Shown here piece by piece: positions 24,281-46,293 of a stretch of DNA of 64,000 nt. The DNA comes from Gracilibacillus suaedae (lineage in GTDB: Bacteria; Bacillota; Bacilli; Bacillales; Amphibacillaceae): positions 1 through 64,000 of the forward strand of contig NZ_JAGFVL010000016.1 in NCBI RefSeq assembly GCF_017599345.1. Direction: 5' to 3'. A program made the translations under genes and the position numbers. Positions within the stretch are counted from its first letter, which is position 1, and each line of letters starts with the position of its first letter. Under the pieces are notes generated by a model. That model did no database searches. It was not told the DNA's origin and worked only from the letters and a program-made list of their open reading frames with translations.

Positions 24281-24302
24281 ACAATGCTATCATTAGCATT
24301 GT
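24281..24302 (-). terminator. Terminator overlapping the pepT stop codon
   Basis: On the minus strand ACAATGCTA/TAGCATTGT with a 4-base loop is followed by seven T residues. The last codons and stop of pepT form the first arm. Confidence 0.85.
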
Positions 24303-25525
24303 TTCGTGAATCGTTCAGCAATATTTATAATCGTTTCGGTAGCCTTAACCATATTATCGACGGAAATATATTCGAATTTTCCATGGAAGTTTTCACCACC
24401 GGTAAATATATTAGGGGTTGGTAATCCCATGAAGGAAAGTTGTGAACCATCTGTTCCACCACGAATTGGCTGGATTAAAGGCTCGACATCGACATCTTTC
24501 ATAGCTTCTGCTGCTATATCTACAATATATTTCACTGGTTCGATTTTTTCTGCCATATTATAGTATTGATCCTTCATTTCTAGCTGGATACATTCTTCAC
24601 CATACTGACTTTGTAACTCCTTGACTATGGAAGTAATCCATTGTTTTTTCTTATTAAATTTATTTCGGTCATGGTCACGGATAATATAATATAACTTAGC
24701 TTCTTCTACATCCCCCTCGAATGAAAGTAGATGGAAAAAACCTTCGTATCCTTCTGTATACTCAGGAGCTTGTTCTGCTGGTAACTGTGCTTGAATTTTC
24801 ATCGCTATTTTTGTTGCGTGAACCATTTTTCCTTTTGCTGTTCCCGGATGAACGTTGTTACCTTGCACAGTAATTTTGGCAGCGGCAGCATTAAAGCTTT
24901 CGTACTGTAGTTCACCTAGTGGTCCACCATCAATCGTATAAGCAAACTGAGCACCAAATCGATCTACATCAAATTTATGAGGACCACGCCCAATTTCCTC
25001 GTCTGGCGTAAAAGCGACTCTGATTGTACCATGTGGAATGTCAGGGTTTGTCATAAGATATTCTAATGCGGTCATGATTTCGGCAATACCTGCTTTGTTG
25101 TCAGCGCCAAGCAATGTAGTACCATCTGTTGTTATTAAGGTGTGTCCATTGTAGTTCGCTAATGAAGGATATTCATCTGGTGATAGGACAATATTTTTCT
25201 CTTTGTTTAATAGAATATCTTTGCCATTATACTGTTCGACTACTTGAGGTTTTACTCCTTTACCGGTAAAGTCTGTTGCTGTATCAACATGGGCAAGAAA
25301 GCCGATTACTGGTACATCTTTATCAACGTTACTCGGAAGTGTCGCCATCACATAACCATTTTCATCAACTGTTACATCATGCATGCCAATATCTTTTAAT
25401 TCTTCTACTAGCAAATGTGCCAGTTCCCATTGGCCATCTGTTGAGGGACAGTCCGGGTTACTTTCATTTGATTGTGTATCGATTTGTACATATTTACTTA
25501 ATCTTTCTATTAGTTTCTGTTTCAT
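24293..25525 (-). CDS. pepT: Peptidase T (aminotripeptidase)
   Basis: This 410-residue M20B metallopeptidase removes the N-terminal residue of tripeptides in the cytosol. Zinc-site motifs are present: [37 protein letters not shown] and the final [16 protein letters not shown], with a central dimerisation/lid domain. The length matches the family. AAATGGAGGCC precedes the ATG. It is monocistronic and divergent from fni. Confidence 0.95.
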
Positions 25526-30302: not shown

Positions 30303-30668
30303 TTAACGTCCTTTTGAATGAAGGACAAAAGCGCCTGAGTTGGGAAAAGTGTCCATCATATGCGCAATGAAGGATAAAGAAATTGTGTTTAATCAATCTA
30401 TCAATGGTGAGGACATAGCGTCTTTATATATATTGATTTTTGCCTACTATATTTTACAAATTAGAAGGTTTAATCGGGACCTTCTTACAGGTAACGATGT
30501 TTTTAAAAAGAAATTAGCTAATATATCAACTCGAAGATAGCACACAAGCACAACGCCAGTAATAGATTAATTGTAAAGATGCTATACCGAAGCTGTCGAA
30601 TCTATGCTATAATGTATCTTAAAAGTTTGAAAATTCTAAATTCAAAGAAATTGGGGGAAAAGGGGATC
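30303..30668. other. Intergenic region upstream of the ABC transporter
   Basis: About 365 bases with no convincing gene; a 66-codon frame at 30340-30540 lacks a ribosome site and family resemblance. An extended -10 element TGC-TATAAT at 30605-30613 is the likely start of the ABC operon. I see no T-box motif or known riboswitch. Confidence 0.5.
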
Positions 30669-31739
30669 ATGAAGAAAAACTTGCTTTTATTATTAATTAT
30701 TGCTTTCTTCAGCGTTCTGGTTCTTGCAGCATGTGGTACGAGTAACGAGACGGATAACACCAATGGTGGATCTGGATCAGATGCTGAAGAGACTGAGGAC
30801 AATACGGAAACAGAAGAGGAAGAGGCAGCTTCTGACGATGAAGTATATCAAATTGGTGCAACGCAAATTGTAGAGCACCCATCATTAGATGCGGCATTTG
30901 AAGGGTTTAAAGAGGCGATTGCAGATGCTGGTTTAGAAGCAGAATATGACTTTCAATCAGCGCAAAATGATCAAAATAATGCGTCGACGATTGCCAATAA
31001 CTTTGTAGCGGATGGTGTAGATTTAATTTTTGCAAACTCTACTCCAAGTGCGCAGAGTGCACTACAAGCAACAAGTGATATTCCGATTTTATTCACGTCA
31101 GTAACAGATGCTGTAGAAAGTGGTCTAGTAGAATCTTTAGACCAACCAGGTGAAAATATAACGGGTGTGCTAGACTTACATCCAGATTCTGTTACAAGAA
31201 CGGTAAAATTTATTGAAAATTATTTCGAAGGAGCTACAATTGGGCTTGTTTATAGTGCAGGTGAAGCAAATTCAGTTGCTCAAATTGAGGCGGTAAATGA
31301 GGCGGTAGAAGGAACGAGCTTATCTACAACTGAAGCTACTGTTGGTAATTCTTCTGAAGTACAGCAAGCAACTAATTCCTTAGTTGGGGATGCAGATGTT
31401 TTCTTCATTATTACGGACAATACAGTTGTTTCTGCATTAGAAACAGTTGTATCAGTGGCGGAAGAACAAGGTATTCCATTGTTTGTAGGTGAACCCGATT
31501 CTGTACAGCGTGGTGGTTTTGCAACGTTTGGTATTGATTACCACACAATCGGCTATCGTACCGGTGAAATGGCTGTCGAAGTGTTAACGGGTGACAAAAC
31601 AACAGCAGATATTCCTGTAGAAGTACCACCAAGCATGCAGCTGTTTATTAACAAAGAAGCAGCAGAAGCACAAGGTGTGGAATGGAACGAAGACTGGGAT
31701 GAAGATGCAGAATTTTTAGAAACAACAGAAGAAGAATAA
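30669..31739 (+). CDS. ABC transporter substrate-binding lipoprotein (TrpX-like)
   Basis: This 356-residue lipoprotein has a signal with lipobox LVLAACG at about residues 17-23 and an acidic Glu/Asp/Thr-rich linker (about 27-55). A periplasmic-binding type 1 fold of the PF04392 family follows (YQIGATQIVEHPSLDAAFEGF, FANSTPSAQSAL, VFFIITDNTVVSAL). TrpXYZ-type systems import aromatic amino acids, but related systems carry other ligands, so the substrate is open. The acidic surface suits a halophile. GGGGAAAAGGGG precedes the ATG. Confidence 0.88.
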   Translation: MKKNLLLLLIIAFFSVLVLAACGTSNETDNTNGGSGSDAEETEDNTETEEEEAASDDEVYQIGATQIVEHPSLDAAFEGFKEAIADAGLEAEYDFQSAQNDQNNASTIANNFVADGVDLIFANSTPSAQSALQATSDIPILFTSVTDAVESGLVESLDQPGENITGVLDLHPDSVTRTVKFIENYFEGATIGLVYSAGEANSVAQIEAVNEAVEGTSLSTTEATVGNSSEVQQATNSLVGDADVFFIITDNTVVSALETVVSVAEEQGIPLFVGEPDSVQRGGFATFGIDYHTIGYRTGEMAVEVLTGDKTTADIPVEVPPSMQLFINKEAAEAQGVEWNEDWDEDAEFLETTEEE

Positions 31740-31750
31740 ATAGCTGAAGG

Positions 31751-31790
31751 AAACCTCGACATTGTTGATGAATGATAGGTGTCGAGGTTT
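31751..31790 (+). terminator. Intra-operon hairpin between binding protein and permease genes
   Basis: AAACCTCGACA pairs with TGTCGAGGTTT across an 18-base loop and is followed by TCTATC. A partial terminator here would give more binding protein than permease, a common arrangement. Confidence 0.7.
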
Positions 31791-31829
31791 TCTATCAAGT
31801 TTGGCAGAAGGATAGAAAGGAAGAGTAGT

Positions 31830-32828
31830 ATGGATGGCACCTTAATTTCCTTATTCAGTGCAGTAGAATCTGGTACAATCTATGCCTTGATGGCATTGGG
31901 CGTTTATCTTTCATTTCGTATTTTAGATTTCCCGGATTTAACAGTGGATGGCAGTTTTGTAACAGGTGGAGCGGTTGCAGCGATTTCGATTGTTAATGGT
32001 GTGCCGCCCGTATTAGCAACATTTTATGCTGCTATTGCTGGATTTTTGGCAGGAGTCGTCACAGGAATTTTAAATACGAAAGGGAAGATTAACCCTTTAT
32101 TATCCGGTATCTTAATGATGATTGCCTTGTATTCTATTAATCTTAGGATTATGGATAAACCGAATGTCGCTTTACTAAATGAACCGACAATGTTTAGTCA
32201 GGTTGAAGGTTTTTGGGCATCTTTAGGTATTGACAACTTTTTAAATGGTATTTTTACCATGGCTGGTTCGGATCGTGTACCGGGCACTTGGGCAATACTC
32301 ATTATTATGGTTATTATTACATTAATCATTAAATTTATAACGGATTATTTCTTAAAAACAGAAGTAGGACTCGCTTTACGTGCAACTGGTGATAATGAAA
32401 AAATGATCAGGAGTTTTTCTGCTAACACTGATATTCTAACGATTGTCGGTTTAGGAATATCTAATGCATTAGTTGCGTTATCTGGTGCTTTTATTGCACA
32501 ATATGGTGGATTTTCAGATGTTAATATGGGGATTGGTATGATCGTCATCGGTCTTGCATCTGTTATTATAGGTGAAGCATTATTCGGTACCAAAACAATC
32601 GCTCGTACAACATTGGCTGTTATAGGTGGAGCTATTGTCTATCGAATCGTGTTGACTCTCGCATTAAAGGTGAAATTCCTAGAAACTGGCGATGCAAAGC
32701 TAATAACGGCAGTGATTGTTATACTTGCACTTGTCGCACCAAAAATCATCGCCACTCAAAAAGAAGCACAACGGAAGAAAAGAAAAAGGGCAATGCTAGC
32801 TAGTGGAGAGGGGGCTAACAATGCTTAG
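31830..32828 (+). CDS. ABC transporter permease (branched-chain-type, TrpY-like)
   Basis: This 332-residue protein has about eight membrane spans and belongs to the BPD_transp_2 family. Motifs include GTIYALMALGVYLSFRILDFPDLTVDGSF and EVGLALRATGDNEKMIRSFSANTD with the EAA-like coupling loop. The ATG at 31830 follows AGGAAGAG. It overlaps the ATPase gene by 8 bases, forming an SBP-permease-ATPase operon. Confidence 0.92.
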   Translation: MDGTLISLFSAVESGTIYALMALGVYLSFRILDFPDLTVDGSFVTGGAVAAISIVNGVPPVLATFYAAIAGFLAGVVTGILNTKGKINPLLSGILMMIALYSINLRIMDKPNVALLNEPTMFSQVEGFWASLGIDNFLNGIFTMAGSDRVPGTWAILIIMVIITLIIKFITDYFLKTEVGLALRATGDNEKMIRSFSANTDILTIVGLGISNALVALSGAFIAQYGGFSDVNMGIGMIVIGLASVIIGEALFGTKTIARTTLAVIGGAIVYRIVLTLALKVKFLETGDAKLITAVIVILALVAPKIIATQKEAQRKKRKRAMLASGEGANNA

Positions 32829-33615
32829 CATGCAAGATATTGCGATTACCTTTAATGAAGGTACGTTGGATGAAAAGAAAGCCCTGCAGGATATTAACCT
32901 TGAGATGCAAAAGGGTGATTTTGTTACCGTAATCGGTAGTAATGGTGCTGGAAAATCAACATTAATGAATATGATTTCCGGGTCATTAAAGCCAGACATC
33001 GGGACGGTAAAAATTAACGATAAAAATGTAACCTTGCTTCCTGAACATAAACGTTCCCAGTTTATAGGGCGGGTGTTTCAAGATCCGATGGCAGGAACGG
33101 CACCGACGATGACGATTGAAGAGAACCTTGCGATGGCATATGCCAGGAACAAAAAGCGTACTTTAAAAGTTGGAGTCAGCAAAAAGCGAAAGGCTTTATT
33201 TAAAGAGCATTTAGAAACCCTTCACTTAGGGCTCGAAAGTAGATTGAACGCCAAAGTCGGTCTGCTTTCTGGTGGAGAGCGTCAGGCACTGTCGTTGTTA
33301 ATGGCAACTTTTACAGAGCCGAATATATTGCTGTTAGATGAGCATACAGCAGCATTAGACCCATCAAGAGCTGAGTTGATTACCAATCTGACTGGTGAAG
33401 TAGTGGAGCAGTTTGGTTTAACCACTTTAATGGTTACCCATAATATGCAACAAGCGCTGGACTTAGGTAACCGTCTGATTATGATGGATAAGGGACAAAT
33501 TATTTTAGAAGTATCTGGTGAAGACAAACAAAAGCTTACCATCGAAAAATTACTACACGAATTCCAACGAATCCGCGGGACGCAAATGGAGAATGACCGA
33601 GCTATATTAGGTTAA
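32821..33615 (+). CDS. ABC transporter ATP-binding protein (TrpZ-like)
   Basis: This 264-residue ATPase has Walker A GSNGAGKSTL, signature LLSGGERQALSLL, Walker B ILLLDEHTAALDP and the switch histidine in VTHNMQQAL. The DEHTAALDP variant is typical of the ATPase paired with PF04392 binding proteins. The ATG at 32821 overlaps the permease end and has GAGAGGGGG upstream. Confidence 0.93.
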   Translation: MLSMQDIAITFNEGTLDEKKALQDINLEMQKGDFVTVIGSNGAGKSTLMNMISGSLKPDIGTVKINDKNVTLLPEHKRSQFIGRVFQDPMAGTAPTMTIEENLAMAYARNKKRTLKVGVSKKRKALFKEHLETLHLGLESRLNAKVGLLSGGERQALSLLMATFTEPNILLLDEHTAALDPSRAELITNLTGEVVEQFGLTTLMVTHNMQQALDLGNRLIMMDKGQIILEVSGEDKQKLTIEKLLHEFQRIRGTQMENDRAILG

Positions 33616-33618
33616 AGT

Positions 33619-33653
33619 AAGGACAGTTACTTCAATGGAGAGTAGCTGTCCTT
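33619..33653 (+). terminator. Terminator of the TrpXYZ-like operon
   Basis: AAGGACAGTTACT pairs with AGTAGCTGTCCTT and is followed by TCTAACC. Confidence 0.75.
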
Positions 33654-33740
33654 TCTAACCAGCAGTGGAATCTAATTGCGCGAAGTCAGACTTTGATATA
33701 AAATGAAAACTCCTTATATGATAGAAAGAAGGGATCACGA

Positions 33741-34928
33741 ATGAAATATGGTTTTTCAGACCGAGTAAAATATATGACATCATCAGCAGTGCGAGATATC
33801 TTAAAAGTAATTAATCAAGGGAATATTATCTCGTTTGCTGGAGGATTGCCGGAAGAAGATTTGTTCCCAGTAAAAGCTGTTGATGAGGCTTTTCATAAAG
33901 CAATTACGACAAATAAAAAAGCGTTACAGTATGGTGAAACAGAAGGTGTATCACAGTTAAGAGAATTATTAGCAGATCGTATGAAGCAGAAAGGGCTACA
34001 CCGATCAGCAGATAATATTTTGATTACTTCAGGTAGCCAACAGGCAATCGATCTGTTTTCACGAGTGATGTTCAATAAAGGGGATGTCATCTTAACAGAG
34101 AATCCAACATATTTAGCTGCATTACAAGTATTTGAATCGTATGAAACTAAAGTGGTGGCAGTTGATGCGGATGATGATGGCATGGTTTTAGCTGATTTAG
34201 AAGAGAAAATTAATCAGCATAAACCAAAATGCATTTACGTGGTACCAACCTATTCGAATCCTACAGGAAAAGTATGGTCGCTAGAAAGACGAGAAAAACT
34301 GTTGGAACTGGCTAATAAATATCATGTAGTTATTTTTGAAGATGACCCTTATGGTGAATTACAATTTGATGAAAGTGAAACACCTCCATCTATCGCTTCA
34401 TTAGATGAGAATGAACTAGTATTATACACGAGTACTTTTTCTAAAACGGTTGTCCCTGCTGTTCGTATTGGTTGGATTGTTGGCCCACACCAAATTATTC
34501 GGATTATGGCTCAGGCTAAACAGGCAACAGATCTTCATACTAATTCTATAGGGCAACACGCATTAGTGCATTTATTACAAGATTTTGATATTGATGAACA
34601 CATTCAAACGATTAGAAAAACTTATTATGAACGAATGCTGGTGATGAAACGGTTATTAGAGAAAGCCAACTTTGAAGGGCTTGAATATGTTGTTCCTAAA
34701 GGCGGTATGTTCTTCTGGGTAAAGCTGCCGGAAGAAATGAACACAACAGAGTTATTAGATGAGGCGGTAAAAGAAGGAGTAGCTTTTGTGCCTGGAGCAC
34801 CATTCTATGTGTCAGATCCAGAACAAAATACACTACGACTAAATTTCACAAACTCAGAACCAGCACTAATTGAAGAAGGCATGAAACGTTTTGTGAAAGT
34901 ATTAGAATCAACATATATCAATAAGTAA
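33741..34928 (+). CDS. PLP-dependent aminotransferase (MocR-like/2-aminoadipate transaminase type)
   Basis: This 395-residue class I/II aminotransferase has FAGGLPEEDLFP, LRELLADRM, ITSGSQQAIDL, YVVPTYSNPTGKVW and FEDDPYGELQF. The PLP lysine lies in TSTFSKTVVPAVRIGW. It is closest to the LysN/kynurenine or 2-aminoadipate transaminase group. It lacks the GntR HTH of MocR regulators. Adjacent to a TrpXYZ-like importer, it may transaminate an imported amino acid (inference). GAAGGGATC precedes the ATG. Confidence 0.88.
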   Translation: MKYGFSDRVKYMTSSAVRDILKVINQGNIISFAGGLPEEDLFPVKAVDEAFHKAITTNKKALQYGETEGVSQLRELLADRMKQKGLHRSADNILITSGSQQAIDLFSRVMFNKGDVILTENPTYLAALQVFESYETKVVAVDADDDGMVLADLEEKINQHKPKCIYVVPTYSNPTGKVWSLERREKLLELANKYHVVIFEDDPYGELQFDESETPPSIASLDENELVLYTSTFSKTVVPAVRIGWIVGPHQIIRIMAQAKQATDLHTNSIGQHALVHLLQDFDIDEHIQTIRKTYYERMLVMKRLLEKANFEGLEYVVPKGGMFFWVKLPEEMNTTELLDEAVKEGVAFVPGAPFYVSDPEQNTLRLNFTNSEPALIEEGMKRFVKVLESTYINK

Positions 34929-35635: not shown

Positions 35636-36022
35636 TTAATCTTCGTCTACAGGGTATACACCATTTTCGTCGTGTACTTCTTTACCTGATAGCGGTGGGT
35701 TGAATACACAAACCATGCGCATATCTGTTTTGGCACGTAGTAAATGTTCGTCATTTTCATCAAGTGCATATAGTGTATCTTTTTTTATTGGCCATACTTT
35801 ATTATCGCTTAATGTTACAACTTCACCTTCACCTTCAATACAGTATACAGATTCAAGGTGATTTTGGTACCAAATATGTGTTTCTGTGCCTGCTTTAATA
35901 ATGGTATCATTGACAGAATAACCCATACCATCTTTTTTCATAATCAGACGACGGCTAACCCAGTTACCTCCGTCAACATCATATTCAGTTCCTAGTACGT
36001 CTTCTAGTTTTACTACTTTCAT
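35636..36022 (-). CDS. ectC: L-ectoine synthase
   Basis: This 128-residue cupin enzyme cyclises N-gamma-acetyl-diaminobutyrate to ectoine, the last step of compatible-solute synthesis. It has the family start [16 protein letters not shown], the cupin segment [21 protein letters not shown] and the second motif [40 protein letters not shown] precedes the ATG. It is the last gene of ectABC, 47 bases after ectB. Confidence 0.97.
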
Positions 36023-36069
36023 AAAATAAATTGCCTCCTGTATTGTCTGTTATATTTGAAAACCGTAAC

Positions 36070-37338
36070 TTAGTTCGTAACGGGATCCTTAACTAAACCT
36101 TTTACACTTTGCTCAATAATATCTAGACCTTTTTGTAGCTCATCTTTTGGAATATTTAATGGTGGGAACAGCTTGAATACTTCATCATTTGGTCCCGCTG
36201 TTTCCATAATTAAGCCTAATTCAAAGCAACGAGCTGTTACTTTCTCAGCAAGTCCTTCAACTTCTGAAGCAATACCTACCATAAATCCACGGCCACGAAC
36301 TTCCCCTTTAATTTCAGGATAGTCTGAAACTATTTTTTCTAGGAAGTTGTAGATGATTTCAGATTTTTCGTGGATTTCTTTTTCAAATGAATCACCTTTC
36401 CAATAGTCAAGTGCTGCTGTCGCAGTCACGAATGCATGGTTATTACCACGGAAAGTACCGTTATGTTCACCTGGTTTCCAAATATCCAACTCAGGCTTGA
36501 TCAACGTTACGGCAAGTGGTAAACCATAACCACTTAATGATTTAGATAAGCAGATTATATCTGGTTTAATACCAGCAGCTTCGAAACTGAAGAATGAACC
36601 GGTACGACCGATACCTGCCTGCACATCATCAATGATTAGTAAAATACCCCAACGACGGCAGATTTCTTCAATTTGTTTTAACCATTCAAAGCGTGCAGCG
36701 TTAATACCACCTTCACCTTGAACCGTTTCCACGATCATTGCGGCTGGAATCGCAACTCCACTACCGTTATCTTCCAAGAATCTTTCTAAATAAACGACGG
36801 TATCATGATCAACATAGTTATCATAAGCCATCGTTACAGTATTTTGTAGTGGAATACCTGCACCTTGGCGTTTCATAGAGTTTCCAGTAACAGACAGGGA
36901 ACCGATCGTCATACCGTGGAATCCACCTGTAAAACTGATAATATCGGTACGACCTGTTACTTTACGCGCTAATTTCAAGGCGCTTTCAACTGTGTTTGTT
37001 CCTGTTGGTCCAGGGAACATTACCTTATAATCAAGATCACGTGGTTTCAAGATCACGTCATCAAACTTCTGTAAGAAATCGGCTTTTGCTGTAGAAGCCA
37101 TATCTAAAGAGTGAGTAATCCCATCACTAGTGATATATTCGATTAATTTTTCTTTCATATGATCATCATTGTGTCCATAGTTAAGTGCACCTGCACCGGA
37201 GAAGAAATCTAAATACTCTTTTCCATCCTCGTCCCACATTTTGTGCTTCTTCGCCTTTGTAAATACGGTTGGGAAGTTACGAACATAACTACGTACTACT
37301 GACTCATGATGATTGATAATATCAATATTTTTACTCAT
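36070..37338 (-). CDS. ectB: Diaminobutyrate-2-oxoglutarate transaminase
   Basis: This 422-residue class III PLP aminotransferase converts aspartate semialdehyde to 2,4-diaminobutyrate. Motifs: [58 protein letters not shown], and the PLP lysine in [14 protein letters not shown]. The length fits EctB. AGGAGGAACTTAAAAG precedes the ATG. It is the middle gene of ectABC, 83 bases downstream of ectA. Confidence 0.97.
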
Positions 37339-37421
37339 CTTTTAAGTTCCTCCTAAATGGTTTTATATATCGAATATTTCCGCACTTTCTAATTCAGAAA
37401 ATACGAAATATTACGACAATA

Positions 37422-37934
37422 TTATTTGTTAATAGGCCCGACAACAAACTTTAATTCTTCTTCGTGTTCATCACCAGGGAAAACATCCTCGGTAAAAAAC
37501 TCGCTTGAAGTTATTTCTGTATTAAAGTCACGAGCTAGTTTCTGGAATAAAGATTGCGATGCCTTATTATCTGGTGTAATAGTTGCTTCGACAAACTTGA
37601 CTGTTTCACATGCCTCACTTGTTAATAAGTAATGCAACATTCTCGATGCAATACCCTTACCTCGTTGTGATGCATCAACACCGATTTGCCAAACAAATAT
37701 AGCATCTGGTTTTTTTGGAGGGATAAATGCGGTAATAAAGCCAACCACTTGGTTATTTTCTTTTGCTACGACACAAGTATCACTAAAATACTCACTCATT
37801 AAAAGGTATTTATAGGGAGAATTTGTGTCTAATGTTGATTTCGATACTAATTCCCACATAGATGCTCCATCATTTTTTGTTGGTTTGGAGAATACAACGT
37901 CTAGTGTTGGAGCTTGGTTCTGTACGTTATTAAT
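37422..37934 (-). CDS. ectA: L-2,4-diaminobutyric acid acetyltransferase, predicted ATT start
   Basis: This GNAT acetyltransferase makes N-gamma-acetyl-diaminobutyrate from DABA and acetyl-CoA. The first in-frame ATG/GTG/TTG is at 37859 and gives only 145 residues (MWELVSKSTLDTNSPYKYLL). The frame stays open upstream and encodes the N-terminal family element FSKPTKNDGASMWELV. It then reaches AAAGGAG, a TAA stop at 37941-37943, and ATT codons. The ATT at 37932-37934, 9 bases after GGAG, gives 170 residues, the usual EctA length. The acetyl-CoA motif QRGKGIASRML is intact. It heads ectABC. The alternatives are a point mutation or a sequence error at the start codon. Confidence 0.9.
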   Translation of the reverse strand: MNNVQNQAPTLDVVFSKPTKNDGASMWELVSKSTLDTNSPYKYLLMSEYFSDTCVVAKENNQVVGFITAFIPPKKPDAIFVWQIGVDASQRGKGIASRMLHYLLTSEACETVKFVEATITPDNKASQSLFQKLARDFNTEITSSEFFTEDVFPGDEHEEELKFVVGPINK

Positions 37935-38700: not shown

Positions 38701-38861
38701 GTCTTTGACTTCATTTAACAGCTCGTCCTAGACAAATCTTCTATTACCCGTGGAGGCTAAGCTAGACAGCTTCAACATTATAAATAAGGTGAAAATGTCT
38801 CTTTTTTAAGCACTTATGTTTAGGTGATGATGAACTTTTGTAGCAAAAAGAGGTGAGTGGT

Positions 38862-40544
38862 ATGAGTTTAACGGTAAATACTATTATGCAATTGCCCGTG
38901 ATGGAAGGCTGTGAAGTAAAGGCAGGTAAGCATGTGCTAGAGCGAAAGCAGATCGAATGGGTTTCAGTTATTGAGCTTCCTGTTGAAAACTTTGTCAGAA
39001 AGAATGAGTTCGTTTTAAGTACCGGTATAGGATGCGAAGATAATCCCAATTTATTAGAATCCTTTGTGCAAGATGTCATTCAATCGAGGGCATCCGTTTT
39101 AGGTTTTGCCACTGGAAGATATATTTATAATATCCCTGATCGAATTTTAAAAAAGGCTAATCAAAATGATTTAATCATTATTGACGTTCCCTGGGAAATT
39201 CGTTTTACGGATATTTGGCAATCTGTGATGGATAAAATTACAGAAGTAAAACAAAAAGAACGTCAAAAGGTAGAAGATGCTAGACAAGAATTAATAAATT
39301 GTGTCCTAAAAGATAAAGGATTAGAAGATATTGCACACACTTTATATAAGTATATTAAAATTCCTGTTGCTATCACAGATGCTGAAAAAAGAAAGAGAGC
39401 ATTGAAGTTTTTTAATAAAGATATTTTGGAAAGTTATAGTCTTGAAGTCCAAGATACCCACTTACAACAGATACCACTATCTGATATAAAATTTCAAGAA
39501 CATCCATTGTATTATCATATGAAAGAATACAAATTTCATAAAGATCGTTTTTTTCAACTGCAAATTCTCAACAACCACAAAGTACAAGGATATATTGTAT
39601 TTCAACCGAGCGATAATAAAGAGTTGACTTGGTTTGTGATGAATGTGCTAGAGCATGCTTTAACAGCCTGTGCCTTATACTTTGTGAAGGAGAATGCCAT
39701 TGAGTTAACCGAGATACGATTAAAAGATAATTTTGTGTTAAACTTAGCTAAAAATAAAATGAAAGTAGATCATCAACTATTAACAAAAGCACATTTATTA
39801 AGTTATGATTTAAATCTTCCTTATGTTTGTATTGTCGGAGAAATTAGACATAAAGATCTAGGATCAGATAAGCATGATACTTTAGATAATCCTTATCACT
39901 CATCATTAAGGAGTTTTAATTATTATATCCAAAAGGAAATTACCTACGCAGGTCATCTGTTTGAGCGAAAAACGATGACTACCTTTGAAAAGGGCGAAGT
40001 GATCCTATATTTGCAAGTAGAGGACCCTTCTTATCATGATATAGCAAACCAATTTTTAGATACGATAGAACGAAGGTTAAGCCAATTGCTTTCAGATATT
40101 GATATTTCTTGGGGAATTGCACTTCAAAAAGAAAGTAAGTATCCATTCTATGAAAGCTATGAAAAGGCAAAAACAGCTCTAGAAATTGGACAGCTGCATG
40201 ATGGTCCTGGTAACAGAACCTTCTATAGTGATACAAGAATTAATCGGCTGTTAATGGCGATATCTCAAGAAGAAAATATTCATGAGATTGTAAGAGATAC
40301 ATTAAAACCATTGTTAGAATATGATAAAAAGAGACAGACAGACCTGATTTTTACTTTTAAGACGTATAACAAATACAAAGGAAATGTTAGTCAAACAGCA
40401 AGAGAACTAAATTTACATCGTCAATCGTTATTGCATCGGTTGCGAAAAATAGAGTCTTTGACCCATTTATCCTTAATCGATGCTGATGATTCCTTTTTAT
40501 TAGAGTTAAGTGTCCGCTTATGGATGCTGAATAAAATAAAATGA
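38862..40544 (+). CDS. PucR family transcriptional regulator
   Basis: This 560-residue regulator has an N-terminal PucR/purine-catabolism-type domain (about 1-125: TVNTIMQLPVMEGCEVKAG, FVLSTGIGCEDNP), a coiled region near residues 130-150, a GGDEF-like/CdaR middle, and the C-terminal PucR HTH (TFKTYNKYKGNVSQTARELNLHRQSLLHRLRKIE). Members are usually activators responding to a metabolite. Its position directly upstream of doeA and its neighbours makes it the probable regulator of ectoine catabolism. AAAGAGGTG precedes the ATG at 38862; a GTG at 38853 overlaps that site. Confidence 0.88.
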   Translation: MSLTVNTIMQLPVMEGCEVKAGKHVLERKQIEWVSVIELPVENFVRKNEFVLSTGIGCEDNPNLLESFVQDVIQSRASVLGFATGRYIYNIPDRILKKANQNDLIIIDVPWEIRFTDIWQSVMDKITEVKQKERQKVEDARQELINCVLKDKGLEDIAHTLYKYIKIPVAITDAEKRKRALKFFNKDILESYSLEVQDTHLQQIPLSDIKFQEHPLYYHMKEYKFHKDRFFQLQILNNHKVQGYIVFQPSDNKELTWFVMNVLEHALTACALYFVKENAIELTEIRLKDNFVLNLAKNKMKVDHQLLTKAHLLSYDLNLPYVCIVGEIRHKDLGSDKHDTLDNPYHSSLRSFNYYIQKEITYAGHLFERKTMTTFEKGEVILYLQVEDPSYHDIANQFLDTIERRLSQLLSDIDISWGIALQKESKYPFYESYEKAKTALEIGQLHDGPGNRTFYSDTRINRLLMAISQEENIHEIVRDTLKPLLEYDKKRQTDLIFTFKTYNKYKGNVSQTARELNLHRQSLLHRLRKIESLTHLSLIDADDSFLLELSVRLWMLNKIK

Positions 40545-40604
40545 TAGGGATGATGAGGCTGAGACATCCAACTATTACCCGATTAAGGGAAACTCTAACT
40601 TTGT

Positions 40605-40795
40605 CTTAATTTTGAAATGAATGTTCCGCTATATAATCGCTCCGGCTGTCCGTTTCCCTTTCCACGGGTTTTTTTCCTCAGCTAACTTTGGTAAGCGAAG
40701 AACGCTTACCAAAGTTAGCTGAAGAGCATGCCCCCCGGAAAGCGAAACGGTCAGCCGAAGCGGTAGTATTACACTCTATTCATGTCAAAATGACC
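40605..40795 (+). repeat. Family A intergenic repeat, copy 4
   Basis: This compact copy has a 19-base perfect stem at 40679-40697/40703-40721, starting CAGCTAACTTTGG, with a 5-base loop. It is flanked by CCGTTTCCCTTTCC and GGAAAGCGAAACGG arms and ends in TATTCATGTCAAAAT as in copies 1 and 2. The palindrome extends the copy 2 stem with extra paired bases, so pairing rather than sequence is conserved. It sits between the pucR-type gene and doeA. Confidence 0.85.
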
Positions 40796-40814
40796 ATAAG
40801 GATTTACTGAAATA

Positions 40815-40935
40815 CACGGTGCTAAACGTCTGTGAGAACCCACTTCAAGCCTCGAGTAACACACAGAAGCTAAGTGGGAATAACAGACGCTAACGCCCTG
40901 ATAAGTTTCACAAATGATGATAGTTTCACTTTATA
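40815..40935 (+). repeat. Family B structured repeat, copy 2
   Basis: This copy has ACGTCTGT/ACAGACG outer and CCCACTT/AAGTGGG inner pairings, then ATGATGATAGTTTCACTTT in place of the full second hairpin. It directly follows family A copy 4. Confidence 0.8.
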
Positions 40936-40941
40936 ACGGCA

Positions 40942-40997
40942 AAATTCCGAACGAATAGACGAATTCTGTGATCAGAATTGGTTATCGTTCGGAATTT
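40942..40997. terminator. Nested long hairpin upstream of doeA
   Basis: A perfect 13-base outer stem AAATTCCGAACGA/TCGTTCGGAATTT encloses an inner AATTCTG/CAGAATT stem. A T-rich run (GTTGTGTTTTT) follows. It may terminate read-through from the pucR-type gene or, as a cruciform, serve as an operator for the doeA operon starting 205 bases later. Confidence 0.55.
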
Positions 40998-41202
40998 GTT
41001 GTGTTTTTAAACCACTTTAGCCTCAGCGGCTCTTTTTTTAAGTGAAAATTGGACATTATATCTTATAATTCGGGGGTTTATGCATGTTGTATGACAGAAA
41101 AGGAAAAACTTCATACAATCTGAACATTACATTTCAACTTGCTGTTTAATAAGATAAAGGTAAGAAATGAAAAGAATTTTTTAGGGGTGGAGGGGGGATA
41201 CG

Positions 41203-42411
41203 ATGTTAGCCTTTGATATTTTAGAATATCAAAAACGTTTAACGAAGACGAAACAACGGATGGTCGAAAACGGCATGGAAGTGTTACTTGTAACAGACCC
41301 AGCTAATATGAATTATTTATCAGGCTATGATGCTTGGTCATTCTATGTTCACCAAATGTTAATTATCATCATTGATGAGCCTCAGCCAATTTGGATTGGT
41401 CGTTATCAAGATGCCAATGGCGCGAAAATTACCACATGGATCTACAACGAAAATATTATTCCATTCCCAGATTATTATGTACAATCATCGATTTATCACC
41501 CAATGGATTTTGTTGCAGAAATTTTAAACCAGATAGGGCAAGGAAATAGAAAAATTGGTGTTGAGATGGATAACTATTATTTCACTGCCAAAGCTCACGA
41601 AAGGTTAAAGTTAGGACTTCCAAACGCTACGTTTAAAAATGCCGATTTATTAGTGAACTATGTAAGAATTATCAAATCAGAGCAAGAAATTGAGTATATG
41701 AAGCGGGCAGCAGAAATAGCTGATCAAGCGATGTATAAAGCAGTAGAAAGTGTAAGAGTAGGGAATAGAGAGTGTGATACGGCAGCAGCGATATATTACC
41801 AAATGATTTCTGGTACGGATGATTATGGCGGAGATTATCCAGCTATTGTTCCATTGCTTCCGTCTGGAGATAATACTGGTGCACCACATCTAACTTGGTC
41901 GGAGAGAAAATATAAAGAAGGAGAGTCTGTTGTTATTGAACTAGCAGGTTGTTACAAGAGGTATCATGTACCAGTAGCTAGAACGGTATCGATAGGTAAA
42001 CCTGCTATGCAGCTTGAGAAAATTGCCCCGATTGTCGTAGAAGGTTTGAATGCTGTTTTGGATGCGGTAAAACCCGGTGTTACTTGTGGAGAACTGGAAA
42101 GGTATTGGTATAACTGTCTCCAAAAATATCGAATTGAAAAAGAAGCAAGACTAGGATATTCCGTAGGTTTAGGTTACCCGCCAGATTGGGGAGAGCATAC
42201 AGCAAGCATTCGAACAGAGGATTCAACGGTTTTACAACCCAACATGACTTTCCACCTTATTCCGGCCTTGTGGTTTAATGACTATGGAATTGAGATTAGT
42301 GAATCATTTCGAGTAACAGGAAATGGCGGTGAAACATTCACTAAAATTCCAAGAGATTTGATTGTGCAAGATCCTTTTCCATTTCAAGAACAAGGTGGAA
42401 TCATCAGCTAG
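41203..42411 (+). CDS. doeA: Ectoine hydrolase (DoeA/EutD-like, M24 fold)
   Basis: This 402-residue protein has a creatinase-like N-terminal domain and an M24 pita-bread C-terminal domain. Characteristic DoeA segments are DPANMNYLSGYDAWSFYVHQ, GRYQDANGAK, GVEMDNYYFTAKA, DYGGDYPAIVPLLPSG and LGYPPDWGEHTASIR. The usual M24 metal ligands are not kept: IELAGCYKRYHVPVART replaces the IDxG...DxTRT pattern. That fits a metal-independent, creatinase-like hydrolase. It opens the ectoine ring to an N-acetyl-diaminobutyrate. GGAGGGGGG precedes the ATG. It is the first gene of a four-gene operon. Confidence 0.88.
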   Translation: MLAFDILEYQKRLTKTKQRMVENGMEVLLVTDPANMNYLSGYDAWSFYVHQMLIIIIDEPQPIWIGRYQDANGAKITTWIYNENIIPFPDYYVQSSIYHPMDFVAEILNQIGQGNRKIGVEMDNYYFTAKAHERLKLGLPNATFKNADLLVNYVRIIKSEQEIEYMKRAAEIADQAMYKAVESVRVGNRECDTAAAIYYQMISGTDDYGGDYPAIVPLLPSGDNTGAPHLTWSERKYKEGESVVIELAGCYKRYHVPVARTVSIGKPAMQLEKIAPIVVEGLNAVLDAVKPGVTCGELERYWYNCLQKYRIEKEARLGYSVGLGYPPDWGEHTASIRTEDSTVLQPNMTFHLIPALWFNDYGIEISESFRVTGNGGETFTKIPRDLIVQDPFPFQEQGGIIS

Positions 42412-42453
42412 TTTTCAAGTTAATTAGATAAGTACTAGATGAGGAGGTATAGT

Positions 42454-43653
42454 ATGAGAGATGTAAAAATGAGTACAAAAGCAGTATGGGCAGGGGAAAA
42501 AGATCAATTAGCTTTCGGTGCCACTCAAGTTCCTGTTGTACACAGTGTATCTTTTGGTTATGACGATATGGATGAATGGTATGAAGTCGCTATCGGAAAT
42601 AAAGAAGGTCATATTTACGGTCGTAATACCAATCCAACCGTAGATGCATTTGAAGAAAAAATAAGAATTTTAGAAGGGGCAGAAGCTGCTACAAGCTTTT
42701 CGACAGGAATGGCAGCGATTAGTAATACACTTGGAACACTATTGTTTCCTGGAGATCGAATTGTTTCCATAAAAGACACGTATGGCGGAACCAATAAAAT
42801 ATTCACCGAATTTCTGCCAAAACAAAAAGTGGACGTGGTTTTATGTGACACAGGGGATCATGAAGCGATTGAAAAAGAGGTAGCAAAAGGATGTAAAATT
42901 CTTTATTTAGAAAGCCCGACAAACCCAACGGTAAAAATCACAGATATTGAACAGATGGCGAAGGCCGGGAAAAAAGCAGGAGCTATTGTCATTGTTGATA
43001 ACACTTTCGCCACTCCGATTAATCAAAATCCGCTTGAATTGGGAGCAGACCTAGTAATTCATAGTGCTACTAAATTTTTAGGAGGGCATGCAGATGCGTT
43101 AGGTGGCTCTGTTTGTGGATCAAAAAAATTAGTAGAAAGTATTTATCATTATAGAGAGATTAATGGAGCAACACTTGACCCAATGTCAGCCTACTTGTTA
43201 TTGCGGGGTATGAAAACGCTTCAATTAAGGATTGAAAAACAAAGTGAAAATGCAATGGCAGTTGCTCGCTATTTGCAATCAGTTGATGCTGTCGAAGCAG
43301 TATTTTATCCAGGATTAGAAGACCATCCGGGCCATAGGATTGCTCAGAAACAAATGAACGGCTTTGGTAGTATGTTAAGTTTCTCCGTAAAGGGTGGGGT
43401 GGATACACTCAGACATCTGCTTCCAAAGCTAAAATATGTGAACCGTGCAGCGCATCTTGGTTCAGTTGAAACGATTGTTGGACCTTCACGCACAACAAGT
43501 CACGTAGAATGTACACCTGAGGAAAGAGCAGCAATGGGGATACCAGAAGGATTAATTCGATATTCAGCAGGACTGGAAGATAAGGATGACCTAATTCATG
43601 ATTTAGAGCAAGCTTTTCACTCTTTGCCAGAAAGTCTATTTGTAAACAAATAA
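42454..43653 (+). CDS. Cystathionine gamma-synthase/lyase family PLP enzyme
   Basis: This 399-residue Cys/Met-metabolism PLP enzyme has YGRNTNPTVDAFEEKI, SFSTGMAAISNT, LYLESPTNPTVKI and IVDNTFATP. The PLP lysine lies in HSATKFLGGHADALGG, and VGPSRTTSHVE in the C-terminal domain. Family members catalyse gamma-elimination or gamma-replacement on homoserine esters, cystathionine or methionine. Between doeA and homoserine dehydrogenase it may act on a (gamma-acetyl-)diaminobutyrate to yield homoserine, which is inference only. AGGAGG lies 9 bases before the chosen ATG. Confidence 0.85.
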   Translation: MRDVKMSTKAVWAGEKDQLAFGATQVPVVHSVSFGYDDMDEWYEVAIGNKEGHIYGRNTNPTVDAFEEKIRILEGAEAATSFSTGMAAISNTLGTLLFPGDRIVSIKDTYGGTNKIFTEFLPKQKVDVVLCDTGDHEAIEKEVAKGCKILYLESPTNPTVKITDIEQMAKAGKKAGAIVIVDNTFATPINQNPLELGADLVIHSATKFLGGHADALGGSVCGSKKLVESIYHYREINGATLDPMSAYLLLRGMKTLQLRIEKQSENAMAVARYLQSVDAVEAVFYPGLEDHPGHRIAQKQMNGFGSMLSFSVKGGVDTLRHLLPKLKYVNRAAHLGSVETIVGPSRTTSHVECTPEERAAMGIPEGLIRYSAGLEDKDDLIHDLEQAFHSLPESLFVNK

Positions 43654-43724
43654 ACCATATTTTTAACTAAAACGAGCAGGGCTATCGCCGAGATTTTCTT
43701 TAAAAAATGATGGAGGTGATGAGA

Positions 43725-44780
43725 TTGACTATGAAGGTCGCTTTTATTGGGTTTGGCGGTGTTGGGCAGGCATTGGCAGAGATTTTCTTGAAGCAACAAA
43801 AGGGTGAAAAGCCGTCTTATGGTTTTGATCCTGAGGTTGTCGCTGTCTCCGATATTATGAAAGGATCTGTGTATCATCCGGATGGTTTAAACATTGAAAA
43901 GTTGTTATCTGCCGTTAGAGAGTCTGGAAGTTTAGATACTTATCCAGATCACACAGGATTAATTAGAGGCTGGGACAGCATGGAAACAATCAAGAATACG
44001 AATGCAGATATGATTGTAGAGGTGACATTCACAGATGTGAAGACAGGTCAACCTGCCATTGATCATTGTCGAACAGCTTTTGAACATAACAAAAGTGTTG
44101 TAACGACTAATAAAGGTCCTGTTGCTTTGGCTTATGATGAGTTATCAGCATTAGCTGAAAAAAATGGGGTGTTCTGGGGGTTTGAAGGCACAGTAATGAG
44201 CGGAACACCAGCTCTCAGATTACCCGTCATGACATTAGCAGGAAATGAAATAACAGAAATTAAAGGTATCTTAAATGGGACGACTAACTATATGATAACG
44301 GAAATGGAAAAAGGTAAGACGTATAAGGAAGCATTAGAAAAAGCTCAAAGCTTAGGCTATGCAGAAGCAGATCCAACTAGTGATGTGGAAGGTTATGATG
44401 CAAGATATAAGACAGCGATTTTAGCGAATTATTTAATGGGTGAAAAAATAGTATCAGAAGAGATTTATTGTAAAGGAATTAGCGATTTAACAGTAGAGAT
44501 GGTGAAAGAAGCCTTAGATAAAAATCAAAAATGGCGTCTGATCTCACGCTTAACTAAAAAGGAAGATGGTTCAATTGAAGCTTCTGTTATGCCAGAATTA
44601 GTTAATGATAATGACCCATTAGCTGGTGTTAATGGCCCGACAAATGCGATTGTTTACGAATGCGACTTATCTGGTCCTATCATGTTAACAGGTGCAGGTG
44701 CAGGGCTAATGGAAACAGGTTATTCACTTTTTATTGATATCATTCATTATCATCGCCACAGAGCTCTAACCAAACTTTAA
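43725..44780 (+). CDS. hom: Homoserine dehydrogenase
   Basis: This 351-residue protein has the NAD(P) motif FIGFGGVGQALAE, an NAD-dependent substrate domain with TNKGPVALAYDEL and FEGTVMSGTPALRL, and GILNGTTNYMITEME plus GYAEADPTSDVEGYDARYK. It lacks the C-terminal ACT domain of the biosynthetic Bacillus enzyme, so it should escape threonine feedback, as expected of a catabolic copy. I chose the TTG at 43725 because GGAGG lies 8 bases upstream; an ATG at 43731 is possible. In this operon it would oxidise homoserine to aspartate semialdehyde. Confidence 0.9.
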   Translation: MTMKVAFIGFGGVGQALAEIFLKQQKGEKPSYGFDPEVVAVSDIMKGSVYHPDGLNIEKLLSAVRESGSLDTYPDHTGLIRGWDSMETIKNTNADMIVEVTFTDVKTGQPAIDHCRTAFEHNKSVVTTNKGPVALAYDELSALAEKNGVFWGFEGTVMSGTPALRLPVMTLAGNEITEIKGILNGTTNYMITEMEKGKTYKEALEKAQSLGYAEADPTSDVEGYDARYKTAILANYLMGEKIVSEEIYCKGISDLTVEMVKEALDKNQKWRLISRLTKKEDGSIEASVMPELVNDNDPLAGVNGPTNAIVYECDLSGPIMLTGAGAGLMETGYSLFIDIIHYHRHRALTKL

Positions 44781-44795
44781 TAGGGGGTGAATTTC

Positions 44796-46232
44796 ATGCA
44801 ACTAAAAGTAAAACAAGAAAAAATGTTGATTGCAGGACAATGGATAGCGGCTGAACAAACATTTGATGTATATGATCCGCAAGATAATCGATTAATTGCC
44901 AAAGTGCCACTAGCTACAGAAAATGATATGCTGTTGGCTATTGAAAAAGCAGAGGAGGCATATCTCAGTAACAAACCATGGCCAACTCATGAAAGAATGG
45001 CCGTACTTCAACGAGTAGCCTCCTATATAGAAGAAAATAAAGAACGTTATGCAGAAACGATTGCATTAGAGGGAAGTAAAACCATTCAGGAAGCTCGCAT
45101 GGAAGTAAAGCGAGCGATTCAAACGATTCAAATTAGTGCAGAAGAAGCACGAAGGATAAATGGAGAAACGATTAATTTTGATCAAAGTGAAACTGGAGAA
45201 AATAGGGTTGGCTATTATTACCGTTTTCCAGTAGGTGTCATTGGAGCGATCACTCCTTTTAATGATCCTTTAAATCTAGTAGCTCATAAGGTCGGTCCAG
45301 CAATTGCCTCAGGAAACGCAATTATTGTCAAACCTGCCTCTGATACGCCGTTAAGTGCATTGCTTCTGGCAGAAGCTTTTACAGAATCGGGGCTTCCGGC
45401 AGGTATGCTGTCCGTTGTGACCGGATCAGGTCGAGATGTAGGAGATGTACTTGTCACACATCCTTCCATTACAATGATTACATTTACGGGTGGAGTAGAT
45501 GTTGGGAAGAAAATAGCGCATAAAGCTGGAATTAAGAAGGTAGGAATGGAGCTTGGGTCCAACTCTCCGGTTATTGTGTTAAAAGATGCAGATATTGATA
45601 AAGCAGTGCTATCTTGTGTTTCAGGTTCTTTTACAGCTGCCGGTCAAAATTGTATAGGTGTCCAAAGAGTCTATGTAGAAAAAGAAATATATAACCAATT
45701 CTTGGAGTTATATAGTCAAAGAACTTCAGAATTGCGATTGGGAGATAAATTGGATCCATTAACAGACGTTGGTCCAATGATTAATGAACGGGAAGCCAAA
45801 AGGGTCGAAGCGTGGGTGAATCAAGCTGTAGCAGAAGGGGCAAACATTCAAATTGGTGGAAAAAGAGAAAGAGCCTTTTATTATCCTACTATTCTAACCG
45901 AAGTCCCCATGCATGCTGTAATTGCGCAAGAAGAAATCTTTGGTCCTGTTGTACTTGTCTATTCAGTAGAGGATGTGCATCAAGCGATTGCTCAGTCAAA
46001 CGCTGTTGATTACGGGCTGCAAGCAGGGATATTTACAAAAGATGTGGAAAATGCGTTCTTAACGATACAGGAATTAGAAGTCGGCGGTATCATGGTGAAT
46101 GATAGTAGTGATTATCGTATTGATGCTATGCCTTTTGGAGGGGTGAAACAATCAGGGTTAGGAAGAGAAGGTATCAAGTCCTCAATCGAAGCCATGACAG
46201 AACAAAAGGTAGTGAGTTTTAAACTAAACTAA
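44796..46232 (+). CDS. Aldehyde dehydrogenase family protein
   Basis: This 478-residue NAD(P)-dependent ALDH has FPVGVIGAITPFNDPLNL, the general base in GMELGSNSPVIV and the catalytic Cys in TAAGQNCIGVQRVY, then AQEEIFGPV and FGGVKQSGLGREG. Substrate specificity cannot be read from sequence. By position it could oxidise aspartate 4-semialdehyde to aspartate, the role of DoeC in Halomonas. GGGGGTG precedes the ATG. It is the last gene of the doeA operon, 15 bases after hom. Confidence 0.9.
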   Translation: MQLKVKQEKMLIAGQWIAAEQTFDVYDPQDNRLIAKVPLATENDMLLAIEKAEEAYLSNKPWPTHERMAVLQRVASYIEENKERYAETIALEGSKTIQEARMEVKRAIQTIQISAEEARRINGETINFDQSETGENRVGYYYRFPVGVIGAITPFNDPLNLVAHKVGPAIASGNAIIVKPASDTPLSALLLAEAFTESGLPAGMLSVVTGSGRDVGDVLVTHPSITMITFTGGVDVGKKIAHKAGIKKVGMELGSNSPVIVLKDADIDKAVLSCVSGSFTAAGQNCIGVQRVYVEKEIYNQFLELYSQRTSELRLGDKLDPLTDVGPMINEREAKRVEAWVNQAVAEGANIQIGGKRERAFYYPTILTEVPMHAVIAQEEIFGPVVLVYSVEDVHQAIAQSNAVDYGLQAGIFTKDVENAFLTIQELEVGGIMVNDSSDYRIDAMPFGGVKQSGLGREGIKSSIEAMTEQKVVSFKLN

Positions 46233-46253
46233 TATTTTTAAAAATAAGAACTA

Positions 46254-46282
46254 AAAAAAGAGACCGTACTGGTCTCTTTTTT
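46254..46282. terminator. Bidirectional terminator between ALDH gene and katA
   Basis: AAAAAGAGACC/GGTCTCTTTTT with a 5-base loop has T runs on both strands and serves both convergent transcripts. Confidence 0.9.
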
Positions 46283-46293
46283 TTGGCTCTTCT

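Follow-up and report, generated by a model that had tools for sequence, protein, structure and literature searches.

Introduction

The closest described systems for ectoine catabolism are the doeABCD and eutDE-ssd-atf clusters of Halomonas, Ruegeria and Sinorhizobium, in which an ectoine hydrolase comes first and an aldehyde dehydrogenase (ALDH) last, with aspartate as the probable end product. In the known pathway an aminotransferase converts diaminobutyrate (DABA) to aspartate semialdehyde (PMC5924519), the same aminotransferase route being described in the available text of PMC7192451 and PMC5320631, and ectoine consumers were placed in the Proteobacteria only (PMC5924519, 2018, in its available sections). 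For Aquibacillus and its kin, the available text of a 2023 study reports that its genomes have doeA and no other degradation gene and regards ectoine mainly as an osmolyte (PMC10203224), while a report of April 2026 tentatively assigns, from BLAST and gene context, a pucR-eutBCD-atf-abgB-thrA-adh cluster without eutE to putative ectoine catabolism in Bacillales (PMC13188858, in the portion available). Here we analyse a stretch of 64,000 nucleotides from Gracilibacillus suaedae (the window; positions 1 to 64,000 of the forward strand of contig NZ_JAGFVL010000016.1, assembly GCF_017599345.1, a genome of 4.65 Mb), in which a gene for a PucR-type regulator precedes genes for a DoeA/EutD-like hydrolase, a Cys/Met-type pyridoxal 5'-phosphate (PLP) enzyme, a homoserine dehydrogenase (Hom) and an ALDH. 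Like the described systems, this block begins its enzymes with an ectoine hydrolase and ends with an ALDH; unlike them it has neither an EutE/DoeB-family deacetylase nor a class-III aminotransferase, carries the PLP enzyme and Hom instead, and is preceded by a PucR-type rather than an EnuR/AsnC-type regulator. We propose, at a probability of about 0.62, that the block is a catabolic operon for ectoine under PucR control, with the PLP enzyme and Hom jointly taking the place of the DABA aminotransferase.

The doeA operon of G. suaedae

The pucR-doeA-CGS-hom-aldh block of Gracilibacillus is real: all five genes of the original prediction were recovered as open reading frames on the + strand, at the places and in the families given there, save that the frame of the regulator (38853..40544) opens at a GTG at 38853, the start proposed earlier, 38862, being the next ATG. 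The regulator, which probably controls the doeA operon, matches PF07905 at 105 bits as well as HTH_30 and GGDEF_2, and an interval of 658 bases separates it from doeA (41203..42411); the gene for the PLP enzyme (42439..43653), hom (43707..44780) and aldh (44787..46232) follow at spacings of 27, 53 and 6 bases, the last of these being 15 when counted from the first ATG of ALDH. The best model for the putative ectoine hydrolase, a protein of the M24 fold, is TIGR02993 at 493.8 bits, under the cut-off of 613, and its nearest solved structures are those of DoeA (6twk and 6twj, 1e-109), followed by Xaa-Pro dipeptidase at 1e-33. The window DoeA is thus closest to ectoine hydrolases by a wide margin of structural match, and ectoine hydrolysis is predicted for it. 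Assignment to the dimethylsulfoniopropionate lyase DddP, another M24 relative, was rejected at 35 bits as compared to 494.

The PLP enzyme (hereafter CGS, a shorthand for the PRK08249-family Cys/Met-type PLP enzyme), proposed to convert DABA to homoserine, scored 734.7 bits against PRK08249 with its cut-off of 600, the sole family passed among the best 25 of 52, and exceeded the cut-off for Cys_Met_Meta_PP (PF01053) at 434 bits. It stayed under the equivalog cut-offs for methionine gamma-lyase (TIGR01328, 390.6 versus 549.7) and cystathionine gamma-synthase (TIGR02080, 337.2 versus 504.55), and in a tree it fell in a clade apart from the six paralogs of its own genome with a support of 100/99, at a point where long branches meet. 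R239, E240, I241, N242, T245, D247, G348, P349, R351 and E357 are among the residues that occur in 97% or more of the 98 CGS rows aligned but in none of the six paralogs. K212 (in SATKF), Y60, R62, Y115, D187 and R374 are invariant in 10 aligned rows, the first being presumably the PLP lysine and the others what we take to be standard catalytic or PLP-binding residues, and where a serine usually precedes LG, 92 of the 98 rows have N, 5 have H and 1 has S. Methionine gamma-lyases head both the matches of CGS in solved structures and the Foldseek list for its AlphaFold model, a model whose mean predicted local distance difference test score of 61.5 is weak for pocket work.

Hom passes PRK06270 (NCBI's general name for this Hom type) at 422.6 bits as compared to a cut-off of 373, shows no ACT domain in a Pfam search and is just 29% identical to the housekeeping Hom of the same genome, while ALDH, proposed to oxidise aspartate semialdehyde to aspartate, belongs to PF00171. 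A similar pair is found in Rhizobium johnstonii 3841, where plasmid pRL8 carries a Hom that is 45.8% identical to that of the window, scores 475.1 against PRK06270 and is directly followed by an ALDH that is 46.1% identical to the window ALDH. RLV_0467, the ortholog of pRL80071 of strain 3841, is placed in a family biased towards homoserine oxidation (citing Liang 2022), and a rhizobial cluster for homoserine catabolism is known (citing Vanderlinde 2014), both according to the available text of PMC10228743; pRL80071 is likely the pRL8 hom compared here, which occupies one place only in a record that does not print the old tag. By analogy with this gene we infer that PRK06270 may mark an oxidation-type Hom, and a preference for homoserine oxidation is predicted for the window enzyme. 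The rhizobial cluster otherwise differs from that of the window: its presumed starting compound is homoserine from outside the cell (PMC10228743 and PMC3333776, in the parts available), it includes homoserine kinase and transporter genes, and neither DoeA nor CGS is annotated within the surrounding 21 kb.

Conservation of the block and replacement of the aminotransferase

Conservation was assessed in two overlapping sets of CGS loci, some genomes being in both. In a survey of 159 genomes of the family, 35 carry PRK08249 over its curated cut-off, at 36 places (the window and 35 places from 34 other genomes, one of which has two), and a scan of named genomes supplied 80 loci, the most similar of 445 relatives. 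DoeA lies on the same strand and at most 1.3 kb from CGS in 34/36 family loci (L070 and L073 being the exceptions) and in 79/80 named loci, DoeA of L150 being elsewhere in the block, frequencies which argue that the pairing is not due to chance. With gene types within 6.5 kb of CGS assigned by identity thresholds, PucR was present in 32/36 family and 57/80 named loci, an M20 amidohydrolase in 22/36 and 56/80, EutC in 2/36 and 36/80, EutB in 2/36 and 18/80, and Hom and an ALDH of the same clade each in 18/36 and 69/80, Hom and ALDH being always jointly present or jointly absent. Where the block is full, its order is typically eutB-pucR-doeA-eutC-CGS-M20-hom-aldh, and all eight Aquibacillus loci carry the CGS block with M20 and Hom. 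PRK06270 over its cut-off was found in 18 of the 159 family genomes, all of them among the 35 with PRK08249 (Fisher 2e-14, a raw value that ignores kinship).

Outside the family the CGS-M20-Hom-ALDH block is rare: in a sample of 398 genomes from the phylum, PRK08249 reached E <= 1e-180 in 3, one of which is the genome of the window. Two other Bacillota families have it. The locus of the first (L217) runs from a eutB-like gene through pucR, CGS, M20, hom and aldh to doeA, with which the contig ends; that of the second (L218) starts within eutC, where its contig begins, and continues with CGS, M20, hom, aldh, eutB and pucR, no doeA being seen. On a plasmid of Priestia megaterium ATCC 14581 the order is pucR-eutB-pdxS-doeA-cyclodeaminase-CGS-M20-hom-aldh-proP, and here pdxS, encoding a PLP synthase (L204:5573-6457), stands within the ectoine cluster beside PLP enzymes. 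Second doeA copies accompanied by eutB and eutC, with no aminotransferase, were seen in two genomes that have the CGS cluster (L180 and L182).

For comparison, 96 strong DoeA places (at least 331 bits, counted by hand) were taken from the family, 34 of them beside CGS, and 40 control loci were hand-picked down the ranking from the 62 that are not. A class-III aminotransferase lies near doeA on either strand in 30 of these 40 within 6.5 kb and in 32 within 9 kb, although some may not be DABA enzymes, and neither Hom nor CGS was found at any of them (0/40). At CGS loci, by comparison, a class-III aminotransferase lies within 6.5 kb in 0/36 and 1/80 (L159), biosynthetic ectB (3 and 1 cases) being excluded. 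Two control loci (L178 and L181) are arranged pucR-doeA-M20-aldh-aminotransferase, mirroring pucR-doeA-CGS-M20-hom-aldh, and the best supported reading of this pattern is that CGS, often together with Hom, would stand in place of the aminotransferase of related loci. In a midpoint-rooted ALDH tree of 50 rows, 11 of the 27 ALDHs from loci without CGS nest within the clade of the CGS-locus enzymes, the other 16 forming a separate clade, and two rhizobial ALDHs also fall inside the CGS-locus clade on a long branch. One ALDH clade common to both designs suggests that the CGS design, too, delivers aspartate semialdehyde, which both types of locus would probably reach. The control loci (L164 and similar) frequently also contain a gene resembling 2-hydroxyacid dehydrogenases (23/40) and a GntR-like regulator (21/40), both named by eye.

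These comparisons bear on the view that CGS is itself a DABA aminotransferase which forms aspartate semialdehyde directly, with Hom draining or drawing on that pool. PMC13188858 lists an atf at this position of its cluster (in the text available), and yet CGS is a Cys_Met_Meta_PP protein over the PRK08249 cut-off and not a class-III aminotransferase. Since Hom is missing from all 40 control loci, 32 of them with such an aminotransferase, aspartate semialdehyde alone does not appear to call for Hom, and we consider an aminotransferase role for CGS quite improbable.

Deacetylation and the substrate of CGS

The original prediction noted that the block has neither deacetylase nor transaminase, which is true of Gracilibacillus, whereas most relatives do have an M20 protein; cluster-type M20 is absent from all named loci of Alkalicoccus (5/5), Salipaludibacillus (4/4) and Gracilibacillus (3/3) and from some others, although at two Salipaludibacillus loci the opposite strand carries a remoter M20 (37%) close by. 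The attribution of an M20 deacetylase to the described doeABCD/eutDE route did not hold up: to our knowledge DoeB/EutE is not an M20 protein, and DoeB encoded on an enterobacterial plasmid (see below) matches TIGR02994 alone, whereas the cluster M20 matches TIGR01891. A doeB/doeD set elsewhere in the genome, which would have spoken against the predicted route, was not encountered, as no protein of the window genome matched EutE/DoeB (TIGR02994) and its class-III aminotransferases comprise ectB of the nearby biosynthetic operon and three elsewhere that are at most 33% identical to those of related doeA loci. Nine M20 proteins are encoded in the window genome, the nearest being at most 41% identical to the cluster M20s, and the one at window positions 24293-25525 was set aside as peptidase T-like by eye.

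Further evidence on the deacetylation step came from plasmids, where 34 records in the collection hold a protein 60-80% identical to CGS; the 33 listed comprise 5 from Priestia and 28 from enterobacteria (Klebsiella and one Pluralibacter). Two of these 28 were viewed, in PLSDB gene tables that may be incomplete. In Klebsiella variicola pJNQH579-1 (NZ_CP078147.1) one strand carries ehuABCD together with eutB/eutC-like genes and the other a MocR-like gene (annotated as PLP-dependent aminotransferase family), doeA (758 bits to TIGR02993), doeB (540 bits to TIGR02994) and CGS (653 bits to PRK08249). Next come a short hypothetical gene and an IS5 element, beyond which an ALDH gene lies on the opposite strand; neither a class-III aminotransferase nor Hom is annotated in 21 kb of this possibly incomplete table. 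Pluralibacter pFB2.3 (NZ_CP014778.1) has ehuBC, a MocR-like gene, doeA, doeB and CGS, with ehuA, ehuD and eutBC not annotated and an IS1 element in their place. As the Klebsiella DoeA is 48% and its CGS 62% identical to that of the window, it seems that CGS was added to a doeAB set of proteobacterial type. The order doeA-doeB-CGS would place CGS after deacetylation, thereby pointing to DABA with its free amino groups as substrate. Both are IncFIB plasmids on which ectoine uptake and catabolism genes and CGS lie near IS5-family and other insertion elements. A megablast search found no Escherichia coli record matching the Klebsiella doeA-doeB-CGS stretch, and no CGS is annotated within 9 kb of a haloarchaeal plasmid doeA in a gene table that is possibly incomplete.

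That CGS might act on gamma-acetyl-DABA directly, rendering the deacetylase dispensable, was a variant entertained from the outset and would suit the genera without a cluster-type M20. This variant is disfavoured, and DABA is the likely substrate, because relatives mostly keep M20 close by and the plasmid CGS follows doeB; moreover, CGS proteins from loci with and without M20 are close kin, and the distant M20 near two Salipaludibacillus loci speaks in the same direction. We regard direct use of the acetylated compound as very improbable in general, and for Gracilibacillus-type loci either a deacetylase would act in trans or CGS would take the acetylated form.

A candidate operator upstream of doeA

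A k-mer count upstream of doeA uncovered TTCATACA, present in the window at 41110-41117 with TGTATGA 15 bases before it and GAACATTACAT after it, the whole forming a putative operator/promoter (TGTATGA-N15-TTCATACA and then GAACATTACAT, 41088..41132, + strand) approximately 90 bases upstream of doeA. Counts were made at 84 CGS loci (the window, the 80 named and 3 family loci) and the 40 control loci. TTCATACA occurs at most 450 bases upstream of doeA in 60/69 CGS loci whose stretch includes PucR and 10/15 whose stretch does not, and in 5/6 control loci with PucR and 0/34 without, where resampled sequences gave expectations of 0.98, 0.27, 0.16 and 0.45, respectively. For the dyad GTATRA-N14..17-TTCATACA the corresponding counts are 35/69, 4/15, 3/6 and 0/34, and for TTCATACA followed by ACATTAC 35/69, 10/15, 0/6 and 0/34. 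Of 17 genomes of the genus, the 5 that have the cluster each contain the exact long site once, and the remaining 12 do not contain it. This correlation with PucR across both cluster types makes the dyad and its ACATTAC element a candidate operator, and PucR likely binds the TTCATACA site. When the site was used to search the 17 genus genomes for a deacetylase under shared control, 18 matches were obtained beyond the 5 exact sites, each with 3 mismatches, as compared to 11 for a reversed control pattern. An inverted repeat (40609-40791) with 89-base arms, 75% complementary, and a 5-base spacer also lies between pucR and doeA.

Neighbouring features

Downstream of the operon a terminator-like hairpin (46253..46283), T-rich on both strands, occupies the interval between the ALDH gene and a catalase gene; it was predicted for the - strand, and inspection of the sequence shows it to be symmetric on the + strand as well. 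Upstream of the pucR-doeA block and on the opposite strand lie the ectoine biosynthesis genes ectA (37422..37859, TIGR02406), ectB (36070..37338, TIGR02407) and ectC (35636..36022, PRK13290), all above cut-off and together spanning 35636-37859. Positions 30579-34928 hold genes that by eye resemble those for a substrate-binding protein, a permease and an ATPase, and then a MocR-like aminotransferase adjoining ectC; this aminotransferase recurs in 4/36 family loci, all with ectABC.

Discussion

In the route that we propose, every reaction of which is predicted from sequence and gene context, DoeA would open the ectoine ring to give acetyl-diaminobutyrate, and a deacetylase would free DABA. In most relatives this would be the M20 of the block, on the enterobacterial plasmids DoeB and in Gracilibacillus an enzyme acting in trans. 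CGS would then exchange the gamma-amino group of DABA for a hydroxyl group from water, yielding homoserine and ammonia, the oxidation-type Hom would convert homoserine to aspartate semialdehyde, and ALDH would complete the route to aspartate. As compared to transamination, the gamma nitrogen would be released as ammonia and one reduced NAD(P) would be gained. In Cys/Met-type PLP enzymes a nucleophile is added to C-gamma of a beta,gamma-unsaturated ketimine intermediate, and cystathionine gamma-lyase deaminates homoserine; loss of the hydroxyl group is thus feasible and so, by reversibility, is the addition of water. The sequence of steps through homoserine and aspartate semialdehyde to aspartate, as originally predicted, is that with the best support from comparative genomics, its gamma-acetyl variant having lost ground.

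A number of observations weigh against this proposal. DoeA lies below the TIGR02993 cut-off, as it does in the entire family (0/159 genomes pass), the window block contains no deacetylase, and the M20 nearest to the cluster M20s cannot be assigned that role as all 17 genomes of the genus have it, whether or not they carry the cluster. Hom and ALDH are both missing from 18/36 family and 11/80 named CGS loci, Hom is not annotated beside CGS in either enterobacterial cluster, and 17 of the 35 family genomes with CGS encode no Hom that passes the PRK06270 cut-off. Organisms of this kind would depend on housekeeping enzymes to consume homoserine. The Hom-less CGS proteins interleave with those that have Hom nearby, and locus L159 has a class-III aminotransferase in addition to CGS. 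In a DoeA tree that combines a selection of 31 of the available CGS rows with the complete set of 40 control rows, a well-supported set of 27 mixes 21 CGS and 6 aminotransferase loci; as few independent switches can be counted (2 on starred branches) and a sign test is unable to reach 0.05, significance cannot be claimed for the association between CGS and absence of the aminotransferase once kinship is allowed for. No precedent for gamma-replacement of DABA with water as the nucleophile was found in the literature searched, which covered few subscription papers.

In the main rival CGS would be a diaminobutyrate gamma-lyase that forms 2-oxobutyrate and ammonia by gamma-elimination, with Hom and ALDH acting separately; the same ketimine can give 2-oxobutyrate, and the prominence of methionine gamma-lyases among the structural matches agrees with this rival, as do the Hom-less loci and the two plasmids without Hom beside CGS. 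It would nevertheless leave the Hom-ALDH pair without a role, though the two are paired at the other loci and the ALDH clade is shared with aminotransferase-type loci, and because CGS proteins with and without Hom interleave on the tree one reaction should fit both. We consider gamma-elimination possible but unlikely. Doubtful in the extreme is a function in sulfur amino acid synthesis, in which CGS would join a unit derived from DABA or homoserine to a thiol: its fold and its sulfhydrylase-like relatives would allow this, while no acyltransferase or sulfur gene was seen among the recurring neighbours viewed by eye, not all of which were searched against libraries.

The Bacillota cluster of PMC13188858 is most likely the CGS cluster, as its printed order fits the doeA, eutC, CGS, M20, hom and aldh of many named loci, and its atf would by position be CGS; the window differs from it in having neither eutBC nor M20. 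The claim that the route was undescribed therefore stands in part: the cluster is in print as putative ectoine catabolism, but in the available text the PLP gene is called atf and thrA is said to reduce aspartate semialdehyde, with no mention there of the Cys/Met-type identity, of replacement of the aminotransferase or of a homoserine step. Nor did the literature searched yield an ectoine route via homoserine dehydrogenase, cystathionine gamma-synthase, methionine gamma-lyase or a DABA ammonia-lyase, the papers retrieved dealing, to judge from their titles, with different topics or, in the case of PMC7192451, with the aminotransferase route. The block thus probably represents a widespread variant of ectoine catabolism of which the cluster is already published and the enzyme step is new. 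On balance we favour the view that the PRK08249 protein is a new hydrating diaminobutyrate ammonia-lyase which, with Hom and ALDH, would constitute a redox-gaining, aminotransferase-free form of ectoine catabolism in many Bacillaceae, shortened on enterobacterial plasmids. If so, this would provide a function for a family annotated only as 'cystathionine gamma-synthase family protein', would add the conversion of DABA to homoserine, a reaction not found in print, and would explain a possible use of ectoine by Gram-positive halophiles that have no doeB/doeD.

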